63,412 bases of DNA from Acidobacteriota bacterium (GTDB taxonomy: Bacteria; Acidobacteriota; Terriglobia; Bryobacterales; Bryobacteraceae): assembly GCA_026394015.1 (NCBI GenBank), contig JAPKZA010000493.1, forward strand, positions 1 to 63,412, in the 5' to 3' direction. Below are positions 815-41,115 of this stretch, piece after piece (the stretch's first letter is position 1; the number at the start of each line of letters is the position of its first letter). The position numbers were made by a program, and so were the translations under genes. Below the pieces are notes generated by a model. That model did no database searches. It saw only the letters and a list, made by a program, of their open reading frames with translations, and was not told where the DNA came from.

Positions 815-3800
815 ATGAATCAAACTATGAAACTGTGGTTCCAGACTGCCTTTTTGGCATTCTTTTTAGGCTGGGCGGCCCTTCCCGCTCTTGGCCAACA
901 AGACCAAGGTCAGATTGCCGGCACCGTGCTGGATGCCAGCAGCGCGAGCGTAACCCGGGCGCGAGTTACGGCGACCAGTATTCAGGGAGTATCCCGGTCG
1001 GTTGATACGGGCGAGAACGGTTCGTACGTTCTGACGAATCTGCCGGTGGGTTTGTACGATGTTAGCGTGCAGGCGGCGGGCTTCAAGCGGTTCACGAGGA
1101 CCGGTGTCAAAGTCGACGTGGCGGCCCGCAGCACGGTGGACGTTAGCCTGGAGCTCGGAGCCGTGAGCGAGTCGATCACGGTGGAGGCGACCGGGGTGCA
1201 ATTGTCGCAGGAGACGGCGCAGATCGGCCGCGTGGTGGAGGCGCGGCAGATTACGGACCTCGCTTTAAACGGGCGAAACCCGATCAACCTGGCGCTGCTG
1301 AAGGCCGGGGTGGTGGGAGGAAACTTCAATAACTTCAACCCCAACAATATGCACGAGAGTTTTTCCATCAACGGGGGGCGGCGCAACGGGAACAACATCA
1401 CGATTGACGGGGTTAACGCGATGCGAACGCGCGGCGACTTTACGGGGTCGGCGCAGGTGGGGCTGCTTAACGTGGACACGATTCAGGAAGTACAACTGCT
1501 GACATCGACCTACCCGGCGGAGTACGGGAGGGCGATGGACGGGCAGATGCGGTTTGTGACCAAAAGCGGAACGAAGGATTTCCATGGCACGGGGTGGTGG
1601 TTCTTCCGGAACTCGGCGATGGACGCCAACAGTTGGACGCGGAACCAGAGCCCGGTGTTCGACGATTATCGGCGCGCGGCGCCGTTTCGGTTCAACCAGC
1701 CGGGGTACGCGATTGGGGGGCCGGTCTACGTTCCGGGCAAATTCAATAAGAACAAAGACAAGCTCTTTTTCTTTGGGTCGCAGGAGTGGCTGATTTGGCG
1801 GCGGGAGCAGACGGTAACGGCGACCGTGCCGACCGATGCGATGCGTCGCGGTAATTTTGCAGAGCTACTGAACCCGGCCAACGCGTTCTTTCGGCGGACG
1901 CGAGTGGTGAATGATCCGCTGACGAACAACGTTCCGTTTGCCGGCAACATCATCCCGTCCAACCGCGTGAGCGCCAATGGTGCCGGTGTTTTGAACGCTT
2001 TTCCTTCGCCAACGCCAGGGTTTCTGCAAGGCACGGACAATTGGATCAAAACGCTGCCGAATCCGCGGGAGAGCCGGAAGGACACCTTTCGGATCGACTA
2101 CTACGCCGGAAAGCATCGGATCAACTTCACCGGCAACAACTACCTTCACTACGAAGATGCTCCGTTTAACACCGGCCTCGACCGGTCGAACTCGCGGTGG
2201 GACCGGCCAAATATGACGGGTGCTTTGAATGTGACGAGTACTTTGTCGCCGACGATTATCACCGACTTCACGTTCACGGCGGCGAACGATGTGGTCTATA
2301 TCGGGATCTACGACAACGAGGGCCAACCGCGGTATCTGCGCGGCCAGTATGGCCTGAACTTCCCTTACATTGTCCCCGGGGTGAAGCGGATTCAGGAGCG
2401 GATTCCGCGCGGGTTGATCAATGGCTTCGCGACGCTGGATGGGTCGTCGAGGCCGGTTAATTCGTCGGGGCCGATGTATATGGCGGCCGGCAATATGACT
2501 TGGGTGAAGGGATCGAAGCACACGATTAAGTTCGGCGGATGGCTGTCGCACGACCAACAGAACAACAACGACCAAAGCGGCGCGCAGCAGAATGGGGAGT
2601 TCAGCTTTCTGGACACCGGCCACCCGTTGACGTCGGGCTTGGCGGTGGCGAACGCGGCGCTTGGCTACTTTGACGTCTATACCGAGCAGGGCCCGGCGGC
2701 GTATACGCTGCTGCGGAGCAACTCGCTCGAAAGCTATATTCAAGATACTTGGCGGGCGACGAAGAATCTGACGATTGAGATGGGACTGCGCCACTCTTTG
2801 CATCAACCGTGGTATGCGAAATGGAACGATATTGCGAATTTTGATACCCGCTATTTTGATCCGGCCAAGCGGGCGATAGTCGACCCGCGCGGCGGCTTCA
2901 TCGTTTCGGGTGATGCGTACAATGGGGTGGTTCTGCCGGGCAACGGCTTCCCGGATTCCGCCCGCGGACGGGCGAACGGCTCCACGCTGCCGAACGTTGA
3001 CCGGTTGTTCCATGGCCTGCCGCGAGGCTTCGCCGACACCTATACGAATGCCTTTGCGCCGCGGCTGGGCTTGGCGTACCGTATGGGAGCGAAGACGGTG
3101 GTCCGCGCCGGAGGCGGCATATTCCACCACCGGCAAATGCACAATCAGGGGTCGCTTTTCCGCAACGCGCCGAACCAGATTCAGGTGCAGGTGTTCAACG
3201 GCGAGGTGGATCGCCCGGGCGGGGCGACGCGTCGCGATTTCCCGTTCTATATTCGGGGAGTTGATTTGCGGTTCAAGTATCCGACGGCCATCAGCTATAG
3301 CCTTTCGATCCAACGGGAGTTGCCTGGTTCGTTGTTGGCCGAGGTCGCGTATGTCGGCAAGTCGGCAACCAACCAGGAGCGGACCCGAAATGTGAACCAA
3401 ATGGTGGCGGGAACGCTGCAAGCCAACCCGGGGTTGAACGCGAATGCGCTGCGGCCGTATCTTGGGCTGGGCCAAGTGGACGTGACGACGCGGGACGGCC
3501 ATAGCAACTATCAATCGATGCAGTTTAGCTTGGACCGGCGGTTCCGGAGTGGTCTGAGCTTTGGCGTTTCTTACACGTTCTCGAAGAATATCAGTGACAT
3601 TTTGACGCCTTTCGATGCTTATCGGAACGTGCGGTCGCTGGATGACATGGATCGGCCGCACTTGTTGAACATCAACTACATTTACGAGCTGCCGTTTTAT
3701 AAGGGGAAGCAGGGATGGCAGGCCAAGGCGCTGGGCGGGTGGCAATTGTCCGGGGTGATGTTCTTCCGGTCGGGCAGCCTGGTTTCGGTGACCGACGGGG

Positions 3801-4177
3801 TGGACGTGGCCGGAGTAGGACAGGGCAGCGGCAATCAACCCTGGGATGTCTCGGGCAGTCTCGCGGTAAGCGAGAGGGGTTTGGGCTTGCGGTGGTTCAA
3901 TACGGCGGCGTTTACGCGTCCGCGGGACGGAACGTTTGGCAACGCGGGACTGAACATTATCCGCGGACCTGGGTTCCAGAATTGGGACGTGGCGCTGTTC
4001 AAGAGCATTCCGATCAGCGAGCGGGTGAAGTCTCAACTGCGATTCGAAGTCTTCAACTTCCCGAATCTACCGTTGTTGAGCAACCCGTCCGGTAGTCCGC
4101 GAGCGGGCAACTTTGGCCTCATCACGTCGAAGTATAGTGAGCGGAACGTCCAGTTGGGTTGGAAGTTCACGTTCTAG
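815..4177 (+). CDS. Oar-like TonB-dependent outer-membrane receptor with N-terminal carboxypeptidase-regulatory domain
   Basis: Large outer-membrane transporter, 1120 residues. Residues 1-27 form a signal peptide ending in ALPALGQQ. Residues about 28-115 are a CarboxypepD_reg-like beta-sandwich (QIAGTVLDASSASVTRARV). A plug-like region follows (ITVEATG, then LNGRNPINLALL, to about residue 250). The rest has the alternating aromatic pattern of a 22-stranded barrel and ends in a terminal Phe (LGWKFTF), the BAM recognition signature. Acidobacterial genomes carry dozens of these; they are thought to import large ligands such as glycan or peptide fragments with TonB/ExbBD energy. I see no clear TonB box and cannot name the substrate. 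The ATG at 815 is chosen because the signal peptide begins there. Confidence 0.9.
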   Translation: MNQTMKLWFQTAFLAFFLGWAALPALGQQDQGQIAGTVLDASSASVTRARVTATSIQGVSRSVDTGENGSYVLTNLPVGLYDVSVQAAGFKRFTRTGVKVDVAARSTVDVSLELGAVSESITVEATGVQLSQETAQIGRVVEARQITDLALNGRNPINLALLKAGVVGGNFNNFNPNNMHESFSINGGRRNGNNITIDGVNAMRTRGDFTGSAQVGLLNVDTIQEVQLLTSTYPAEYGRAMDGQMRFVTKSGTKDFHGTGWWFFRNSAMDANSWTRNQSPVFDDYRRAAPFRFNQPGYAIGGPVYVPGKFNKNKDKLFFFGSQEWLIWRREQTVTATVPTDAMRRGNFAELLNPANAFFRRTRVVNDPLTNNVPFAGNIIPSNRVSANGAGVLNAFPSPTPGFLQGTDNWIKTLPNPRESRKDTFRIDYYAGKHRINFTGNNYLHYEDAPFNTGLDRSNSRWDRPNMTGALNVTSTLSPTIITDFTFTAANDVVYIGIYDNEGQPRYLRGQYGLNFPYIVPGVKRIQERIPRGLINGFATLDGSSRPVNSSGPMYMAAGNMTWVKGSKHTIKFGGWLSHDQQNNNDQSGAQQNGEFSFLDTGHPLTSGLAVANAALGYFDVYTEQGPAAYTLLRSNSLESYIQDTWRATKNLTIEMGLRHSLHQPWYAKWNDIANFDTRYFDPAKRAIVDPRGGFIVSGDAYNGVVLPGNGFPDSARGRANGSTLPNVDRLFHGLPRGFADTYTNAFAPRLGLAYRMGAKTVVRAGGGIFHHRQMHNQGSLFRNAPNQIQVQVFNGEVDRPGGATRRDFPFYIRGVDLRFKYPTAISYSLSIQRELPGSLLAEVAYVGKSATNQERTRNVNQMVAGTLQANPGLNANALRPYLGLGQVDVTTRDGHSNYQSMQFSLDRRFRSGLSFGVSYTFSKNISDILTPFDAYRNVRSLDDMDRPHLLNINYIYELPFYKGKQGWQAKALGGWQLSGVMFFRSGSLVSVTDGVDVAGVGQGSGNQPWDVSGSLAVSERGLGLRWFNTAAFTRPRDGTFGNAGLNIIRGPGFQNWDVALFKSIPISERVKSQLRFEVFNFPNLPLLSNPSGSPRAGNFGLITSKYSERNVQLGWKFTF

Positions 4178-4204
4178 GAGAAGGGCGGCAGCGATATCGG
4201 TTTC

Positions 4205-4250
4205 GGCCAACGTTGCTTTGAGCGCAGCGTTGGCCGCGCTGATATTTTTT
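4205..4250 (+). terminator. Rho-independent terminator after the receptor gene
   Basis: A 12-bp stem lies 28 nt after the receptor stop codon: GGCCAACGTTGC at 4205-4216 pairs with GCAGCGTTGGCC at 4224-4235 with one G-T pair. The loop is 7 nt. A T-rich stretch (TATTTTTT) follows about 6 nt downstream at 4243-4250. The T-run is displaced by a few bases from the stem, so it may be a weaker terminator than a textbook example. Confidence 0.55.
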
Positions 4251-4267
4251 GTTGGTTCTTGCGGTAG

Positions 4268-4393
4268 TCACTCCTGGCGAATCGCGATGGCCGGGTCGAA
4301 GCGCAGCGGGGCCGGCCGATCAGACTCCGGCAGGATGCCGACGACGAGATAGGGTTCGACATTGAGGATGGGGGTAGGGCAGCGAAGTATCAA
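4268..4393 (-). pseudogene. C-terminal fragment of an ADOP/FtsX-type permease
   Basis: On the minus strand one frame reads ...LNVEPYLVVGILPESDRP, then a tail ending LRFDPAIAIRQE and a stop at 4268-4270. Endings such as '(R)xDPxxALRxE' are the hallmark of MacB/FtsX-like permeases of the large acidobacterial ADOP family, one complete member of which lies at 25165-27441. Only about 40 codons are readable before an upstream in-frame stop. It has no start codon, no transmembrane segments and is squeezed between a terminator and the next gene. I read it as a gene remnant left by a deletion or rearrangement. Confidence 0.4.
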
Positions 4394-4410
4394 GGATTTT
4401 GATTATCCTC

Positions 4411-5223
4411 ATGAATATGCATCGATTGGCGGGCAAAGTGGCGCTGGTGACGGGCGCGGCGTCGGGAATTGGCGCAGGGATCGCGCGGGCGTTTGTGGCC
4501 GAAGGCGCGGTGGTCTATGTGACGGACTTAGACGATGAGCGGGGGAGACGAGTCGTCGAGTCGTTGGGCGATTCCGCGCGTTACGCGACGCTGGACGTGC
4601 GGGAGGAGTCTGACTGGATGGCGGTGACGGATTGGATTTTGAAGAGTACCGGGCGGCTGGACGTGGTGGTGAACAATGCGGGGATTACGGGGTTCGAAGG
4701 GACGGTGGCGCGGCATGACCCGGAGAACGCTTCGCTGGCCGACTGGCGGGCGGTGATGGCGACGAATCTGGACGGGACGTTTCTGGGTTGTAAACACGCG
4801 ATTCGAGCAATGCGGGCTGCCGGAGAGGGATCGATCATCAACATCTCGTCGCGGTCTGGGCTCGTGGGGATTCCAGCGGCGGCGGCGTATGCGGCGAGCA
4901 AGGCGGCGGTACGGAACCATACGAAGACGGTCGCGCTGTATTGTGCGGAGCGGGGCTGGGCGATCCGGTGCAACTCGATTCATCCAGCGGCGATTCTGAC
5001 GCCGATGTGGGAGCCGATGCTGGGCGAAGGCGAGGGGCGGGAGGCGAGAATGGCTTCGTTCGTGCGGGACGTTCCGCTGGGGCGATTTGGGAGTGTGGAG
5101 GAGGTGGCGGCGTTGGCGGTGTTGCTGGCTTCGGACGAAGTGAAGTACATGACCGGAGCGGAGCTGACCGTGGACGGGGGATTGTTGGCGGGGTCGGCAG
5201 TTACTCCGAAGCGCAAAGATTGA
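4411..5223 (+). CDS. Short-chain dehydrogenase/reductase (SDR family)
   Basis: Classical SDR oxidoreductase of about 270 residues. The Rossmann glycine motif TGAASGIG is near the N-terminus, the acidic residue after strand 2 (YVTDLDDE) points to NAD(H) rather than NADP(H), NNAG is present, and the catalytic Ser and Tyr-x-x-x-Lys are in ISSRSG and YAASK. The C-terminus has the usual [10 protein letters not shown]. The family reduces or oxidises alcohols and ketones on many substrates; nothing here fixes the substrate. The frame could also begin at a TTG at 4399 or the ATG at 4417; I chose the ATG at 4411. It stands 32 nt before the membrane propeller gene and may be cotranscribed with it. Confidence 0.85.
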
Positions 5224-5255
5224 ACGAATTGGCGGTGGGGTCCGTATAGGGGTAA

Positions 5256-6986
5256 ATGACGACTTTGCAGAACCGACTTCGGCTTTGGCCAGGGGTGTTG
5301 ATCGTGACACTGACGTGGCTGGTTCGGTTCGGATTGCCGGTGGTGGCGCCGGACGCGCTGCCTTACGCAGTGGGCGGTGGACTGCTGGGCGGTCTGATGG
5401 TCTTTGGATGGTGGGTCTTCTTCAGCCGGGCTCAGGCGGTGGACCGTTGGGGGGGCTTGGCTTTGATCGTGGTCGGCTTGGGGGCGAGCTCGCAGCTGCT
5501 GCACGCTTCGATTGCGAAAGGGATGATGGGGCTGATGTTTCCGATCTACGCGATTCCGACGGCAAGCTTGGGATTGGTGGTTTGGGCGGTGCTGAGCCGG
5601 GGCCTTTCGACGGGACTGCGCCGGGCGATGATGGGGGTGAGTCTGGCGGTGGCGTGCGGGGGGTGGACGCTCGTGCGGACGAATGGGATGACCGGCGAAG
5701 CGGTATCGGACTTTACGTCGCGCTGGGCCCCGACGGCGGAGGAGCGGTTATTGGCCCGGCCAATCGAGCCGGTGGTGGAGAAGATTCCCGAAGTACCGAT
5801 AGTTGCGCCGACTCCGGTGGTCGCGAAGCCTGTCGTGAGCTGGACGGGGTTTCGAGGGCCGAATCGGGATAGCGTTTTGCGCGGGGTACGGATCGAAACC
5901 GACTGGGAGGCGACGCCTCCGCGGGAGATTTGGCGGCAGCCGGTGGGGCCGGGTTGGTCCTCGTTTGCGGTTGAGGGCGATCGGTTCTATACGCAAGAGC
6001 AGCGGGGCGCGGACGAGGTGGTTTCCTGTTACTTGGTCAGCACGGGAAAGCTGGTGTGGCGGCATGGGGATGCGGCGCGATTCTGGGAGTCCAATGCGGG
6101 GGCGGGGCCGCGGGGAACACCGACGCTGCATAACGGTCGGGTGTATACCTTCGGCGGGACGGGGATTCTGAATGCGCTGGACGGGCGGAATGGTGCGGTG
6201 AAGTGGTCGCGCGATGTGGCTAAGGATAGCGGTGCGAAGACGCCGGGATGGGGTTTTGCGGCTTCGCCACTGGTGGTGGACGACACGGTGGTGATCGCTG
6301 CCGGGGGCAAGTTGGTGGGGTACGACATCGTGACGGGCGAGCCGCGTTGGTTCGGCCCGGAGGGGGGATCGGGATACAGTTCGCCGCATCTGTTGACCAT
6401 CGGAGCGGTGCGGCAGATCGTAGTGATGAGCGGTCCGGGGGCGACGAGCGTGGCCGTGAAGGACGGTGCGCGGCTGTGGGATCATGCCTTGCCGGAGCAT
6501 GGGCGCATTGCGCAGCCGGCGATGACGACCGAGGGCGACTTACTGCTGAGCGAGGGCGAAGGGAACAACTTACACCGCGTGGCGGTGTCGCAAGGGGCGG
6601 GCGGGTGGACGACGGAGGAGCGTTGGAGCACGAACGGGCTGAAGCCGTACTTCAACGATTTCGTCGTTCACAAGGGCCATGCGTACGGGTTCGACGGAAG
6701 CATCCTGTCTTGTATCGACTTGAAAGACGGCCAACGGAAATGGAAAGGCGGGCGGTATGGGCATGGGCAGATGATCCTGCTGGCCGACCAGGATTTGCTG
6801 CTGGTGCTGACGGAGGAGGGCGAACTGGCTTTGGTTTCGGCGGAGGCGGACGGGTTCCGGGAGACGGCTCGATTCCGCGCGATCGAAGGGAAAACGTGGA
6901 ACCATCCGGTGTTGGCGGGCGATGTTTTGTTAGTCCGGAACGGCGAGGAGATGGCGGCATTTCGGCTGACGATGGCGCGGCGCTAA
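5256..6986 (+). CDS. Membrane-anchored PQQ-like beta-propeller protein
   Basis: 576 residues in two parts. Residues 1-160 contain about four or five hydrophobic helices (for example [21 protein letters not shown]). After a Pro/Val-rich linker, residues about 200-576 form a PQQ-like (quinoprotein-fold) propeller, recognisable from [21 protein letters not shown] and [13 protein letters not shown] repeats. Proteins with the 'FRGPNRDG' opening are abundant in Acidobacteria and Planctomycetes and are usually called PQQ-binding-like proteins, but cofactor-binding residues of true PQQ dehydrogenases are not evident. It probably acts as an extracytoplasmic scaffold or sensor. The function is unknown. 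Confidence 0.75.
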
Positions 6987-7216: not shown

Positions 7217-8501
7217 CTACAACCGAAACAACTTTTCCGACTTCATTCCCTTGAAAGCGTTTCGAGTATCGACCAGCACGGGCGAGGCGGCTAGGATCGC
7301 ATCGGCGTCAAAGGCGGCATGATCAGTGACGAGGACGACGCAGTCGGCCCGTTCGCAGCCGACAATCACGTCTTCCGAGTACATGTCGAGCCCATCGATT
7401 TTCAAATGCGGGACAAACGGGTCGCTGTAACTCAGCTGGGCGCCGCGCTGTTTCAACACATGGATGATGTCGAGGGCGGGAGACTCCCGGACGTCCTCGA
7501 TGTTCTTCTTATACGCAACGCCAAGCACGTGGATCTTCGAGTCGCGGAGGGGCTTTCGGTTTTCGTTGAGAGCGTGCTGCACCTTATCGACGACGAAGTT
7601 CGGCATCTGTCCGTTGATGTAACCGGCTAACTCAATGAAGCGAGCCTCGATGCCTTGCGTAGAACGGGTCAACGGGGATGCAATGGCCCCCAAGTCCGGG
7701 GCCGGGATAGAAAGGCATGAACCCGAACGGCTTCGTGGCCGCGGCGTCGATCACTTCCCAAACGTTGATGCCCATGCGGTCGCACATCATGGCCATCTCG
7801 TTGACGAGGCCGATGTTGATCATGCGGAACGTATTTTCGAGTAACTTCACCATCTCGGCGACGCTGGTGGACGTTACCGGGACAACGGTATCGAGCGACT
7901 GGGCGTAAAAAGCGGCACCGAGTTCGGTGCAGGCCGGGGTGATTCCACCAACGACTTTCGGAATGTTGCGGGTTTGATACTTGGCGTTGCCGGGGTCTAC
8001 CCGTTCCGGAGAGAAGCAGACGAAGAAATCCTCACCGACCTTGAGCCCGGACTTTTCGAGCATGGGTAAGACTAACTCATCCGTGGTTCCGGGGTAAGTG
8101 GTCGATTCGAGAATCACGAGTGTCCCCGGGCGGAGATACTTTGCAATCTGCTCGGTCGAACTTACGATGAAACTCATGTCCGGGTCTTTTGTCTTCCGCA
8201 GCGGGGTAGGGACGCAGATGTTAATCGTGTCCATCTCGGCCAGCTTGGAAAAATCATTCGTCGCTTTAAACAGCCCCTTTTCGACGAGGGGCGCGATCAC
8301 GGTATCGGGAACATCCTGGATATAGGATTTGCCCTGATTCAACTGCGAGATCTTCTCTTCGATGACATCGAAGCCCACGACGCTGAAGCCGGCGCGCCCA
8401 AACTCGACGGCCAAGGGCAGGCCGACGTAGCCCAGACCAACGATTCCGGCCACGGCTTTCTTGCTGAGGATCTTCTCCAACAGCGCTTCTTTATGCGTCA
8501 T
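7217..8501 (-). pseudogene. UDP-sugar 6-dehydrogenase (UDP-GlcNAc/ManNAc dehydrogenase type), frameshifted
   Basis: NAD-dependent nucleotide-sugar dehydrogenase of the WecC/WbpA type, which oxidises UDP-N-acetylhexosamine to the uronic acid for surface polysaccharides. The 8501-7632 part has the Rossmann motif GLGYVGLP, the central domain and the catalytic-cysteine motif GGHCIPVDP with Cys near residue 274. The frame then runs off into RHRGSLH and a stop. The rest (GIEARFIELAG, VLGVAYKKN, VRESPALDI, TRNAF) continues in another frame down to 7217. By comparison with the family's DPFY-LTWKAR-type sequence, about 20 nt are missing just after DPFY at around 7655-7665. The start overlaps dapF by 11 nt, so it closes the operon. 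Either a true inactivating deletion or an assembly error. Confidence 0.8.
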
Positions 8502-36506: not shown

Positions 36507-38183
36507 ATGCTTGTTGAGTTGCACGTCGAGAACTTCGCCGTCGTTGAGCGCCTACGGCTCCGCTTCCACACCGGCCTGAACCTACTGACCGGCGAAACCG
36601 GCAGCGGCAAGTCGATCATCGTCGATTCGCTCGGCCTTCTGTTCGGCGGGCGGGCCTCGGCCGACGTCGTCCGTACCGGCACCGAACGGGCCCGCATCTC
36701 GGGCGTGTTCTCGGTGCCGCAGGCCCCCGCCTTCCGAGCGCTGCTCGAAGAAGCCGGTATTACCCTCGAAGACGATGAACTCATCGTCGAACGCGAAATC
36801 ATGGCCTCCGGTAAGTCCCGCGCCCTGCTCGCCAACCGTCCGGCCACGGCGACGCTCTTGAAATCGCTCGCCCCGTGGCTCGGCGACATCCACGGCCAAA
36901 ACGAGCAGCAGCGCCTCCATTCGCCCGAATCCCAGCGCGAGATGATCGATACCTTCGGGGCCACCTATCGGCTGCTTGAACAGGTCGGCGGCCTGTACGA
37001 CGCCTGGCGCGCCTGCAGCAGGGAACTCGAAGACCTAGACCGCACCGAGCAAGAGCAGCTTCGCCTTGCTGACCTTTGGAGCTTCCAACGCAAAGAGATC
37101 GAAGAGGTGGATCCCCAGCCCGCCGAAGACAACGAACTCACCGACGAAAAACGGGTTCTGCAAAACGTCACCCGCCTTTCCGAGCACGCCGAAACCGCCT
37201 TCACCGCCCTCTACGACGCCCCCGACTCCGCCGTCGCCCAGGCCCGCATCGCGGCCAAGCGGGTGCAGGAACTCGTCCGCATCGACCCCAGCCTCCAGGA
37301 GGTCGCCGACCTCCTGAAACCGGCTATCATTGGGCTCGAAGAAGCCGGGCTCACCCTCCGCGACTACCTCGGCAAACTCCATGCCGACCCCCAGCGCCTG
37401 GACGAAGTCGAAACCCGCCTCGCCGCCATCGACCGCCTCCGCCGCAAATACGGGGCAACCATCGAAGAGATCCGTTCCTTCCTCGCCCAATTGCGGGGCA
37501 AAATGTTGACCGTCCAGGAAGCCGGCGAAAAGCGCGCCGAAATCGAAGCCCGTCGCCAGTCCCTGGCCGCTGAGTTCATCGCCGCCGCCGCCCAGTTGAC
37601 CGCGGCCCGCAAAGACGCCGCCAAAAAGCTCGAAAAGCGCGTCGAAAAGGAACTCGCCGCCCTCGCCATGGCCGGCACCCGTTTCCGCGTCGCCCTGTCC
37701 GCCGCTCCGTGGTCCACCGAAGGAGCCGACGCCGTCCGCTTCCTGGTTTCCGCCAACCTTGGCGAAGAACCCCGCGAACTCGACAAGGTTGCCTCCGGCG
37801 GCGAAGTCTCCCGCATCGCCCTCGCCATCAAAACCTGCATCGAAGGGGAGCGCCCCGGCGCCACGCATCATCTGCTGGTGTTCGACGAAGTCGACGCCGG
37901 CATCGGCGGCGAGGCATCCGAGGCCGTCGGCCGTCGGCTGAAAGCGCTGAGCCGGTCCCACCAGGTGCTTTGCGTTACCCATCAGGCGAACATCGCCTCC
38001 TTCGCTGACCACCACTACCGCGTGGAGAAAAAGGAATCCAACGGCCGCACGGTCGCCGCCGTCTCCGAACTCCTCGGCGAAGAACGAACCCGCGAAATCG
38101 GCCGTATGCTCTCCGGCCAAAGGCTGACTCCGGAAGCCCTCCGCCACGCCGAACAACTCATTGAAGCGGGCCACCTCGCCTAA
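36507..38183 (+). CDS. recN: DNA repair protein RecN
   Basis: 558 residues, SMC-like ATPase in double-strand break repair. Walker A is GETGSGKS at the N-terminus, a central coiled coil contains long charged helices, and the C-terminal part has SGGEVSRIALAIK (signature), LLVFDEVDAGIGG (Walker B) and CVTHQANIASFADHH. Length and layout are standard. The frame is open far upstream (to 35919), but the ATG at 36507 fits the MLVELHVENFAVVE start. It is divergent from comEC with a gap of about 48 nt. Confidence 0.95.
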   Translation: MLVELHVENFAVVERLRLRFHTGLNLLTGETGSGKSIIVDSLGLLFGGRASADVVRTGTERARISGVFSVPQAPAFRALLEEAGITLEDDELIVEREIMASGKSRALLANRPATATLLKSLAPWLGDIHGQNEQQRLHSPESQREMIDTFGATYRLLEQVGGLYDAWRACSRELEDLDRTEQEQLRLADLWSFQRKEIEEVDPQPAEDNELTDEKRVLQNVTRLSEHAETAFTALYDAPDSAVAQARIAAKRVQELVRIDPSLQEVADLLKPAIIGLEEAGLTLRDYLGKLHADPQRLDEVETRLAAIDRLRRKYGATIEEIRSFLAQLRGKMLTVQEAGEKRAEIEARRQSLAAEFIAAAAQLTAARKDAAKKLEKRVEKELAALAMAGTRFRVALSAAPWSTEGADAVRFLVSANLGEEPRELDKVASGGEVSRIALAIKTCIEGERPGATHHLLVFDEVDAGIGGEASEAVGRRLKALSRSHQVLCVTHQANIASFADHHYRVEKKESNGRTVAAVSELLGEERTREIGRMLSGQRLTPEALRHAEQLIEAGHLA

Positions 38184-38225
38184 GGGGAATAAAGTGTTTA
38201 CAACAGTTTACCGGGATTTTCAGGC

Positions 38226-38254
38226 TTGCCGAGGTTCCGGCCATAGACTACACT
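38226..38254 (+). promoter_or_regulatory. Possible sigma-70 promoter of the bufferin operon
   Basis: TTGCCG at 38226-38231 and TACACT at 38249-38254 are spaced by 17 nt, in the 81-nt gap between recN and the precursor gene. The transcription start would fall only a few bases before the ATG at 38265, giving a nearly leaderless mRNA, which makes the assignment doubtful. No metal-regulator operator could be recognised. Confidence 0.22.
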
Positions 38255-38264
38255 GGGGTTACTT

Positions 38265-38549
38265 ATGAACTCTCGTAGACTGCTCCTCGCGACCGCCCTC
38301 CTCGGATTGGGAGCGTCCGCCACCACCTCCGCTTTGGGCAACGCGGAGCCCGCCGCAGCGGGAGACAAAGAAAAATGCTACGGCATCGCCAAAGCCGGCA
38401 AGAACGATTGCGCCGACGCCAATGGCGTCCATAGCTGCGCTGGCCAGGCCAAGGCGGACAATAGCGCCAGTGAATGGAAGTACGTAGCCAAAGGAACCTG
38501 CGAGAAAGAAGGCGGAAAGACGACTCCCCCTGCCAAGAAGAGTAAGTAG
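38265..38549 (+). CDS. bufA: DUF2282 bufferin-type precursor peptide
   Basis: 94 residues. A signal peptide ([20 protein letters not shown]) is followed by a short core with the conserved pattern of DUF2282 proteins: [19 protein letters not shown] and a late GTCEK. The four Cys are at 38, 49, 58 and 79. In the bufferin group of ribosomal peptides an MNIO (DUF692) enzyme turns Cys residues of such precursors into thiooxazole-type heterocycles, and the exported product binds copper. The enzyme is encoded immediately downstream. The C-terminal tail is Lys-rich (PPAKKSK). The gene begins 81 nt after recN and is the first gene of the system. The family assignment is from the cysteine pattern; the modification here is inferred. 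Confidence 0.85.
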
Positions 38550-40221
38550 AGCGACCGGGGCCGGCGTCGGCCTCCGAGCCCCCCATCATCGCGAATTCTT
38601 GCGGCAGCGCCCCAAGCTGAACTGGCTGGAAGTACACACCGAAAACTACTTCCAGCCGGGCGGGTGGGATCGTCACGTCCTCTTCGAACTGCGTCAGGAT
38701 TATGCAATCAGCCTCCATGGCGTCGGCCTGGGGCTCGGCTCGGTAAATGGCTTTGATCGCGAACACCTCCAGCGCGTGCAGGCTTTGGCCCACGATCTGG
38801 AACCGGCTCTGGTCTCCGAGCATCTGTCCTGGGGCGCCGTGCCGGATCGCCATCTCAACGACCTCCTCCCTCTCCCCCTCAGCCAATCCGCGCTCGACCT
38901 GCTCTGCCAACGGGTGGACCAAGTGCAAAATGCCCTGCGGCGTCCGATCCTCCTCGAAAATGTATCCACCTATCTGCGCTATCGCGTGGATGCGATGAGT
39001 GAAGCCGACTTCTTGCTCGCTCTCGCCCAACGCACGGGCTGCCAGATTCTACTCGACGTCAATAATCTCTACGTCAACCAGATCAATCATGGGGAGTCCG
39101 CGCTAGAAGCGATGGCAACCATCGCCGCGCATTCTACAAACGTAGTCGGTGAGATTCACTTGGCCGGGCACCTGCGTGCCGACGACTTGGCAATCGACAA
39201 TCACGGTTCGTGTGTCGCCGATGCGGTCTGGGACCTATACCGCGCCGCACTGGGGCATTTCGGCGCCGTGCCCACTTTGATCGAATGGGATACCGACATC
39301 CCGCCGCTGCCGGTCCTGCTCGGCGAGGCCGCCAAAGCCGAAGTCTATTTGCAGTCCGCACGGCCCGCCGAATGCGTCACCGCCGCCGGCGCGGGCGCCG
39401 GCCCCTCAACTCCGCCCCAGCCATCGGAGATAGCGGAGATCCAAGCGGCGTTCGCGAACGGCCTGGTCGCCCCCTCCGTCCCCGAACTCGACTGCTTCGT
39501 CGGCCCTTTCGACCAATCCACCCGTCGCTTCGCTCGGTATCGCGGCAATCAAATCGCGACCTGGGAAAACGTTCTCGCCGCCGCCTACCCGGTGATGCGC
39601 GCCCTGGTTGGCGAGGAGTTCTTTGCCGCCATGGCCCCGCCCTTCAACTCAGCTCACCCATCGAAGAGCGGCGACTTGAACGATATGGGAGGGGCGTTCC
39701 CCGAATTCCTGGCCCTGTTTCCCCACGTGGCGCAGTATCCTTATTTCCCCGATGTCGCCCGTTTGGAATGGGCTATCCACCGCGCGTACTATGCCGCCGA
39801 AGCGCCCGACCCGCTCGACGCCCACCAGTTGTCGACTTGGTCGCCCGCGCAGATGGAAGCCGCCTGCTTCCTATTGAACCCGGCGTGCCGCCTCTTCCGG
39901 TCAAGCTGGGCGGTCGTGGACGTATGGCAGGCGCATCAAGCGGAACCGGTGGCACTGCCAGAACGGCTGAACGCGGAAACGTATACGCTCGTCTGCCGTC
40001 CAGGCTGGAAGCCCCAAGTGCTGTCGATCTCGCGGCCGGCCCATTCGGCTTTGTCCGCGCTCGCCGCCGGAGCCACCTTCGGCGCTGCCCTCGACGCAGC
40101 ATTCCAGGTGGACGCATCGTTCGACGTCGCGGCCAACCTTCTGCAGTGGGTGGAGTTGAAACTGCTTTCCAATCCGATCCCGACCACCCCGTCTAAAGAT
40201 TTTCCGCGAATGAGCCGATAA
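38530..40221 (+). CDS. bufB: MNIO-family (DUF692) peptide-modifying enzyme fused to a DUF2063 partner domain
   Basis: Residues 1 to about 290 are a DUF692 TIM barrel, the multinuclear non-haem iron oxidase that modifies bufferin precursors. Likely metal ligands are in [51 protein letters not shown] and EWDTD. After a Pro/Ala linker, residues about 300 to 430 match DUF2063 ([49 protein letters not shown]), the partner normally encoded as a separate BufC gene. The family N-terminus [15 protein letters not shown] is read from 38554, but the only start codons in this open frame (from 38488) are CTG at 38530 and TTG at 38599; the latter would delete the first barrel strand. The CTG is a provisional start. 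It overlaps the end of bufA in another frame. Confidence 0.8.
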
Positions 40222-40227
40222 TCGCCT

Positions 40228-41115
40228 GTGCAAGAGGCTCCCACAACCAATCGCCGTCGGCAAAAGCGACAAGTATGGAACGACAAGAAACGGATCCAGC
40301 TTTGGGTCGAACGCGAACAGGACGCCTGGCAGCGGGTGCCGGGCGAAATTGAAAACGGCTCGGAGTTCGGGTTCGGCATGATTATTAACCGCCAAATCGC
40401 CGCCGGCCAGCGGGTTTTGGTTGACGGTGCCCCCTTCGCCGCCAGTCAGGGTGGCCGCGCCAAAGGCCACATCATCTGGTGCGAAACCTTGCCGGAAGCC
40501 CGCTTCCGTGTCGGCGTGGCCATGGAGCCAGTCGCCTCCACCGCAAAAGAAGGCAATGCCGACTTCTGCGATTGCTATGCTCTGCTCGAAGTCCACTCCG
40601 AAGCCAGCCTCGACACCATCCACCGGGTCTACCGAATCCTAGCCCAGCGCTTCCATCCGGACAACCCGACGACCGGCAATGAAGACCATTTCAAGCTGCT
40701 CGCCACCGCCTACCGAGTCCTTTCCAACCCCGATCTCCGCGCTCAATACGACGCCTACTACCGGCAACGCGTCGGGCAGCAGTGGAAAATCTTCGATCCG
40801 AAAACAGCGCTAGCCGGGATCGCCGGGGAGCGCAAGAAGCGGAATGGCGCCCTCGCCGCCCTCTACGTGAAGCGCGTGCAACAACCCCATGCCCCAAGCA
40901 TGGCGATCCCGGAACTCGAAGAGTTGCTCGGCGTTCCCCGCGAGCATCTCGAATTCACCCTCTGGTTCATCCGCGAACAAGGGTGGGCCACCCGATCCGA
41001 CAGCGGTCGTCTCACCATCACCGCCAAGGGCGTCCTTCACGCCGAAGAGACGGGTGCCTGGCAGGCACCTGGCGCTCACGAGCAACATCTGCTCGAAGGG
41101 ATTCACCCCGTCTAG
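40228..41115 (+). CDS. J-domain protein with N-terminal PilZ-like and C-terminal winged-helix regions
   Basis: 295 residues from a GTG start 6 nt after the MNIO gene. Residues about 1-105 look like a PilZ-type beta-barrel (SEFGFGMIINRQIAAGQRVLV). Residues about 111-180 are a DnaJ domain with the HPD motif in LAQRFHPDN. The C-terminal 90 residues resemble a winged helix (LEFTLWFIREQGWATR, then GRLTITAKGV). The J-domain implies recruitment of a DnaK partner. It might be part of the bufferin transcript by position, but such genes also stand alone. Confidence 0.7.
   Translation: MQEAPTTNRRRQKRQVWNDKKRIQLWVEREQDAWQRVPGEIENGSEFGFGMIINRQIAAGQRVLVDGAPFAASQGGRAKGHIIWCETLPEARFRVGVAMEPVASTAKEGNADFCDCYALLEVHSEASLDTIHRVYRILAQRFHPDNPTTGNEDHFKLLATAYRVLSNPDLRAQYDAYYRQRVGQQWKIFDPKTALAGIAGERKKRNGALAALYVKRVQQPHAPSMAIPELEELLGVPREHLEFTLWFIREQGWATRSDSGRLTITAKGVLHAEETGAWQAPGAHEQHLLEGIHPV

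Follow-up and report, generated by a model that had tools for sequence, protein, structure and literature searches.

A probable bufferin-type RiPP cassette with a fused MNIO-DUF2063 enzyme behind recN in an acidobacterial genome

Introduction

Can a bufferin maturation enzyme and its partner protein be encoded as a single chain, and can such a chain be made when its gene carries no standard start codon? Both questions are raised by a two-gene locus in a 63,412-nucleotide stretch of DNA from an Acidobacteriota bacterium (contig JAPKZA010000493.1), which we call the window. A preliminary description of the locus, made from the letters of the DNA, had proposed a bufferin-type system in which a DUF2282 precursor is followed by an MNIO enzyme (DUF692) joined to its DUF2063 partner.

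The bufferin passages of PMC12452194 describe Buf1 precursors with Sec signals, in which the central cysteines are modified, the outer two form a disulphide, and the product chelates copper. The partners are DUF2063-RRE proteins and the gene order bufABC is strictly conserved; the described bufferin loci usually keep the MNIO (BufB) and the DUF2063 partner (BufC) separate, in agreement with the preliminary description (PMC12452194). The authors of PMC13097082 suggest that MNIO-PME1 systems broadly install 5-thiooxazoles. For HvfB, an MNIO, the corresponding parts of PMC13419390 (a preprint of July 2026) report that HvfC is required for the active mixed-valent diiron Fe(II)/Fe(III) state and that weak HvfB-HvfC binding led the authors to build a fusion. 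Joined by engineering into one chain, in the order of the window enzyme, HvfB and HvfC showed markedly higher activity than when they were co-expressed as separate proteins, and the signal peptide seems to play a leader-like part (PMC13419390).

Precursor gene and its surroundings

All features of the locus given below lie on the + strand. The precursor gene (38265..38549) encodes a BufA-like Buf1/DUF2282 protein of 94 residues. In the Pfam profile search it matched PF10048 (DUF2282) with 81.3 bits against a cut-off of 22.4, and its translation has cysteines at exactly positions 38, 49, 58, and 79, the four positions named beforehand. Its N-terminus (38265..38339) begins with MNSRR and resembles a Sec signal peptide, with positive residues followed by a hydrophobic stretch; judged by eye from the translation, this part is probably the leader. 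The precursor matched in only one of the 61 related genomes searched, which is its own genome. The precursor tree is too short and gives no resolved placement.

The Pfam scan covered 34 ORFs of the window, and in none of them did we recognise a sigma factor, NrsF, DoxX, or a copper gene. The one promoter-like hit in a scan of 38100-40400 falls within the enzyme gene and not ahead of the precursor; terminator-like hits in the same region did not exceed the number in shuffled sequence. Farther away in the window, a UDP-glucose/GDP-mannose dehydrogenase ORF of 289 aa on the minus strand (7632-8501) matched the N-terminal and central domains with no match to the C-terminal domain, and it is possibly truncated or frameshifted.

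The fused enzyme

The enzyme frame extends over 38530..40221 when counted from a candidate start, CTG 38530, and was read from 38551 to 40218 for the profile search. PF05114 (DUF692) matched residues 3-266 of this frame with 322.5 bits, and PF09836 (DUF2063) matched residues 296-387 with 73.4 bits. Together with PF10048 on the precursor, all three profiles whose search had been proposed in the preliminary description were over their cut-offs, and no stop codon separates the MNIO and DUF2063 halves in the enzyme frame, so that the two domains are joined in one chain as it had claimed. The E-values, 2e-20 to 1e-103, rule out chance matches of the precursor and the enzyme to these families.

The MNIO (BufB) TIM-barrel domain occupies 38557..39348, and the first half of the enzyme also exceeded the cut-off of the NCBIfam BufB (bufferin maturase) model NF050167 (346 bits vs 310). 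The DUF2063 domain of the partner lies at 39436..39711 and the C-terminal RRE-type part at 39712..40184. We assign the partner (BufC) to PME-type 1 on its DUF2063 match over the cut-off and on an RRE part indicated by a sub-threshold match to the HvfC model NF050145 (residues 321-483, 36.7 bits, cut-off 142), a confident structure model, and fold matches to TglI.

The structure model was obtained with AlphaFold2 from the window protein aligned with 31 of 57 fused loci from other genomes. The mean pLDDT was 90.3 and the pTM was 0.89, and the predicted fold has two well-formed parts connected by a short low-confidence linker. The segments with pLDDT <50 are the linker centre (model residues 286-292) and the last six residues. 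The linker (39349..39435) is variable in length among fused proteins, and the A263-Q298 span has 35 residues in the window enzyme and 20-64 in 54 fused rows. In Foldseek searches, the barrel matched TglH (8hi7_B), the DUF692 protein 3bww, and chains of MbnB; two chains of TglI (8hci_A and 8hi7_A) appeared among the lower-ranked matches.

We aligned the window enzyme with 53 other fused proteins, leaving out four truncated or odd loci, and inspected the conserved columns. Of 130 near-invariant columns, 125 (96.2%) are unchanged in the window enzyme. The leave-one-out value of the other fused proteins has a median of 99.2%, with L053, L043, and L035 below the window and L003 about equal, which puts the window enzyme on the diverged side. 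One of the five altered near-invariant residues (Y13H) is in the N-terminal stretch. At the chosen conserved polar positions (His, Glu, Asp, or Asn), 20 of 20 residues are identical in the window enzyme, in line with the earlier statement that the metal-ligand motifs are visible; some of these positions are presumably the iron ligands of the MNIO.

The fusion among relatives

A scan of genome contigs found 401 relatives, and the best 80 were kept. Both domains are in one open frame in 57 of these best 80 and are separate in 23, giving 58 fused and 23 split loci with the window included. On this count, we rejected the idea that the fusion is unique to this organism. All 57 fused loci are labelled Pseudomonadota, 55 of them Burkholderiales and 47 Oxalobacteraceae; 19 are titled as MAGs and 38 are not. 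A precursor-like match is present in 79 of the 81 loci, window included, and the two loci without it (L058 and L067) are both cut by a contig end. Three of the fused loci are incomplete: the contigs of L051 and L055 end within the locus, and the contig of L058 begins within it.

All trees here are quick ones built with no bootstrap. The MNIO tree has 105 rows and places the window inside a fused clade of 56 rows (SH-aLRT 94), with L043 and L057 as its sisters (SH-aLRT 96), and the starred branches force at least two changes. The end branch of the window enzyme is long, 0.41 changes per column vs a median of 0.15. The closest row to the window in the partner tree is the fused, truncated L058 (labelled Janthinobacterium), with a support of 99, and L043 is far from the window there (path 2.09 vs 0.77). 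The nearest neighbour differs between the barrel (L043/L057) and the partner (L058), and both are candidates for the sister of the window enzyme; L058 has too little barrel for the MNIO tree and is absent from it. As judged from these sequences, the fusion is a regular architecture of a Burkholderiales clade, and the window enzyme falls inside that clade. The family assignments behind the first proposal of a bufferin-type fused system thus stand; the proposal had not recognised that the fusion is regular in this clade, and it had overlooked the missing start codon described below.

Two of the fused relatives are unusual in themselves. L053 has a fused MNIO-DUF2063 outside the main fused clade and is possibly an independent fusion. 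L057, a MAG labelled Bordetella parapertussis, has a fused frame (2958-5424) in which the MNIO and the first part of DUF2063 are followed in frame by an unrelated part that by eye resembles a serine beta-lactamase-type domain; a gene rearrangement or a misassembly is possible there.

The start of the enzyme gene

The enzyme frame contains no in-frame ATG, GTG, or TTG between the upstream stop at 38485 and TTG 38599. The ORF start listed originally, TTG 38599..38601, is a mechanical one and corresponds to residue 24 counted from CTG 38530. We rejected it as the natural start: it lies inside or after the conserved N-terminus and would delete the first barrel strand (residues 11-14 of the AlphaFold2 model, counted from CTG 38530).

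The best candidate is CTG 38530..38532, the only ATG, GTG, TTG, or CTG in frame between 38485 and 38599. It is located 20 nt inside the precursor gene, adds seven residues, and has an SD-like stretch, AAGGCGGAAAG, upstream. In a crude calculation, the anti-SD duplex energy was -7.2 for CTG 38530, -5.4 for the precursor ATG, and +0.1 for TTG 38599, and the candidate starts of ten relatives gave values between -9.5 and +1.2; as support for the CTG start these energies are suggestive only. With no ATG, GTG, or TTG start, synthesis of the enzyme is in doubt: either an unusual codon serves as the start, for which CTG 38530 appears best, or the enzyme is crippled, and on the sequence its activity in this genome is uncertain.

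The most serious alternative, which we consider possible and well short of probable, keeps the same cassette and takes the enzyme gene as a young pseudogene: its start codon and ribosome site would have been lost in a deletion between it and bufA, and only unmodified precursor would be made. A standard in-frame start is present ahead of the first barrel strand in 78 of the 80 fused and split loci examined (L058 left out). The two exceptions are the window and L035, a MAG in which the N-terminus appears to switch frame. The distance from the precursor stop to the conserved GAGVGLR is 7 nt in the window; wherever else a precursor match is present it is 11-212 nt, with 42 nt and an ATG in L043. 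These observations, the long end branch, and the five changed near-invariant residues speak for this alternative. However, both domains are covered by an open frame with a coding-type GC pattern, and all 20 of the chosen ligand-type residues are retained. Six of the seven near-invariant residues upstream of TTG 38599 are also kept, and the CTG has its SD-like stretch at a normal distance. We rank CTG-coupled translation of the enzyme somewhat above the young pseudogene.

It is conceivable, if rather doubtful, that the enzyme has no start of its own and that the maturase comes only from ribosomes translating the precursor, through CTG 38530 or through +1 slippage at the precursor stop. If slippage occurs, it would give a rare precursor-enzyme-partner chain. 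A precursor-dependent start, if true, would lock substrate, enzyme, and partner together in expression.

It is unlikely that an error of sequencing or assembly hides a normal start between the two genes, and such an error would be compatible with an ordinary fused cassette. The assembly is in 574 contigs, and the relative L035, itself a MAG, looks frameshifted near its N-terminus, both of which could speak for such an error. Against it, the 7 nt from the precursor stop to the domain start hold no ATG, GTG, or TTG in any frame. A single-base indel would therefore give the enzyme no start of its own, and a longer missing stretch would be needed.

The insertion behind recN

The cassette (38184..40184) forms an insert of ~2.0 kb behind recN, made up of both genes and the 81 nt that precede the first. 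It is absent from this site in congeners. In G011, whose recN is 95% identical, the recN end is contiguous with DNA homologous to the window from 40185 onward, and in G001 and G008, which also have the empty site, the same DnaJ-domain gene follows ~30 nt after recN. G004 and G009 have neither the cassette nor the DnaJ gene at this place. Since G011 is without the insert, the cassette probably arrived after the lineages of G011 and this genome had parted. In G012, the nearest genome by recN (97%), the contig ends 130 nt after recN (L111, G012:C465, 3757-3886); the DNA there resembles neither the insert nor the empty site more than shuffled sequence does (score 14, shuffles up to 17), and the site behind recN may be variable in this closest recN relative.

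An imperfect direct repeat of 12 nt flanks the insert. The left copy, CACCTCGCCTAA, is the last 12 nt of recN (38172..38183), and the right copy, CACCCCGTCTAA, lies inside the enzyme frame (40185..40196), as placed by an ungapped alignment to the G011 recN end and the DNA following it. The copies are identical at 10 of 12 positions; 10 of 63400 12-mers on the + strand, the recN end itself included, match the recN end as well as this. From the right copy on (~40185), the enzyme frame is homologous to intergenic DNA of G011, and its C-terminal tail with the stop (40185..40221) comes from host DNA. The tail residues resemble neither L043 nor any of the seven other fused C-termini compared. The frame end at 40221 in the preliminary description is right in that the frame is open to this stop; the last codons do not belong to the original enzyme gene.

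Immediately downstream of the insert, the protein of 40228-41115 has a weak N-terminal PilZ match (below the cut-off) and a DnaJ domain. It was matched in 24 of the 26 genomes searched, in some by the DnaJ part only, and in several as tandem pairs elsewhere.

We searched three sets of genomes, each including the own genome, for a match to the enzyme that spans both domains. Among the matches listed, none was found in the other genomes of 61 relatives (14 matched at <=0.001), and only the own match spans both domains in 237 genomes of the family (65 matched at 1e-20) and in 396 genomes of the phylum (58 matched at 1e-40). Up to five candidates per genome were scored for the family and up to three for the phylum, a scope in which a second domain of very divergent sequence might escape notice. 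From its position in the trees and its absence in congeners, the cassette looks horizontally acquired. Set beside an insertion that is probably younger than the split from G011, the long end branch of the enzyme (0.41 changes per column) suggests that the true donor is probably unsampled. GC content was rejected as a foreign mark, as it is 62.3% in the insert and 62.1% in the window. No transposase was recognised in the insert. Phage carriage was also rejected, because a scan of viral contigs gave no relative. Plasmid records matched in 273 cases; the 20 listed are all from Burkholderia glumae with two separate annotated genes (one checked), and fused forms may occur among the other 253.

A chimeric assembly or binning artefact, in which the cassette would be foreign to this genome, could account for the foreign phylogenetic position of the enzyme and for the lack of a listed match spanning both domains in the other sampled family and phylum genomes, but it is very improbable given the genes on both flanks that are syntenic in congeners, the 12-nt repeat bounding the insert, the 3' end that grades into host intergenic sequence, and the GC content close to that of the window.

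Proposed function and meaning

In the reading we favour, the locus is probably a RiPP cassette for a bufferin (Buf1, captophorin-type) in its minimal form and with the fusion of the Burkholderiales clade: bufA is followed by one BufB+BufC gene, and the whole was inserted behind recN. The precursor would be made with a Sec signal peptide that doubles as the leader, and the RRE-type end of the fused enzyme would hold it. With the covalently attached partner as its activator, the MNIO barrel would then oxidise the central C49 and C58 to 5-thiooxazoles, and C38 and C79 would form a disulphide. The product may pass through Sec to the periplasm and bind copper there. The chemistry and the export are predicted from relatives, and the copper binding from the family only. 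Translation of the enzyme would most likely begin at CTG 38530, close to the end of the precursor gene; it would proceed at a low rate and be coupled to that of the precursor. In favour of this reading are the family matches, the place of the enzyme in the fused clade, the retained conserved residues, the confident two-part fold, the empty site in congeners, and the published results on the engineered HvfB-HvfC chain and on the Buf1 cysteines. Counting against it are the lack of a standard start, the five altered near-invariant residues, the lack of a recognised sigma factor, NrsF, DoxX, or copper gene and of a promoter-like hit ahead of the precursor, and the disagreement of the trees on the nearest neighbour.

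The kind of system is known and the fused form is ordinary in its clade; what is notable here is the transfer and the missing start. In the window, such a kit has apparently left Pseudomonadota as nothing more than a 2-kb piece; the locus is also a test case for the fate of a two-gene RiPP operon with no standard inner start codon. By analogy with the engineered HvfB-HvfC chain, natural fusions may gain from a guaranteed 1:1 pairing. For structural and spectroscopic work, the natural MNIO-DUF2063 fusions (57 of the best 80 among 401 relatives) offer enzymes already in a 1:1 ratio.

Comparison with known systems

The fusion passages in the main text of PMC12452194 name MNIO-nitroreductase and precursor fusions, and a natural MNIO-DUF2063 fusion is absent from these passages. 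In the literature searched, including passages of PMC12710340, PMC13097082, PMC13174530, and PMC12141560, we recognised no description of such natural fusions. An MNIO with a fused recognition domain has been described; there the fused part is an RRE domain and not a DUF2063-RRE partner, which by description sets it apart from the window enzyme.

Compared with the bufABC genes of the Buf1 BGC, as presented in the bufferin passages of PMC12452194, the window locus is alike in its four-Cys DUF2282 precursor with a signal-like N-terminus, its MNIO, its DUF2063-RRE partner, and its gene order. It differs in that BufB and BufC are one chain with no standard start codon for the enzyme, and in that none of the accompanying DoxX, sigma, and NrsF genes was recognised among the window ORFs scanned.

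The own genome holds a second, unlinked MNIO locus (L001, G000:C309, 1006-3085), whose MNIO groups with those of congeners in the tree. It is like the window locus in having precursor-like, MNIO, and partner genes. It differs in the CKG-type repeats of its precursor (EGKCG/oxazolin-like by eye) and in its separate MNIO and partner genes.

The window locus is also like the fused MNIO-DUF2063 loci of Oxalobacteraceae and other Burkholderiales (L003-L058 and L062), which share the architecture and the clade with the window and have a precursor-like match in 56 of 57. Over the chain, the window enzyme is 44-58% identical to the 31 fused members aligned. All of those examined except L035 have a standard start; the window enzyme has none and in addition carries a host-derived C-terminus. 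The engineered HvfBC fusion, as described in the relevant parts of PMC13419390, likewise has the MNIO first and the partner second in one chain. In contrast to the window enzyme, HvfBC is man-made, has no linker, and serves oxazolin rather than a Buf1 precursor.
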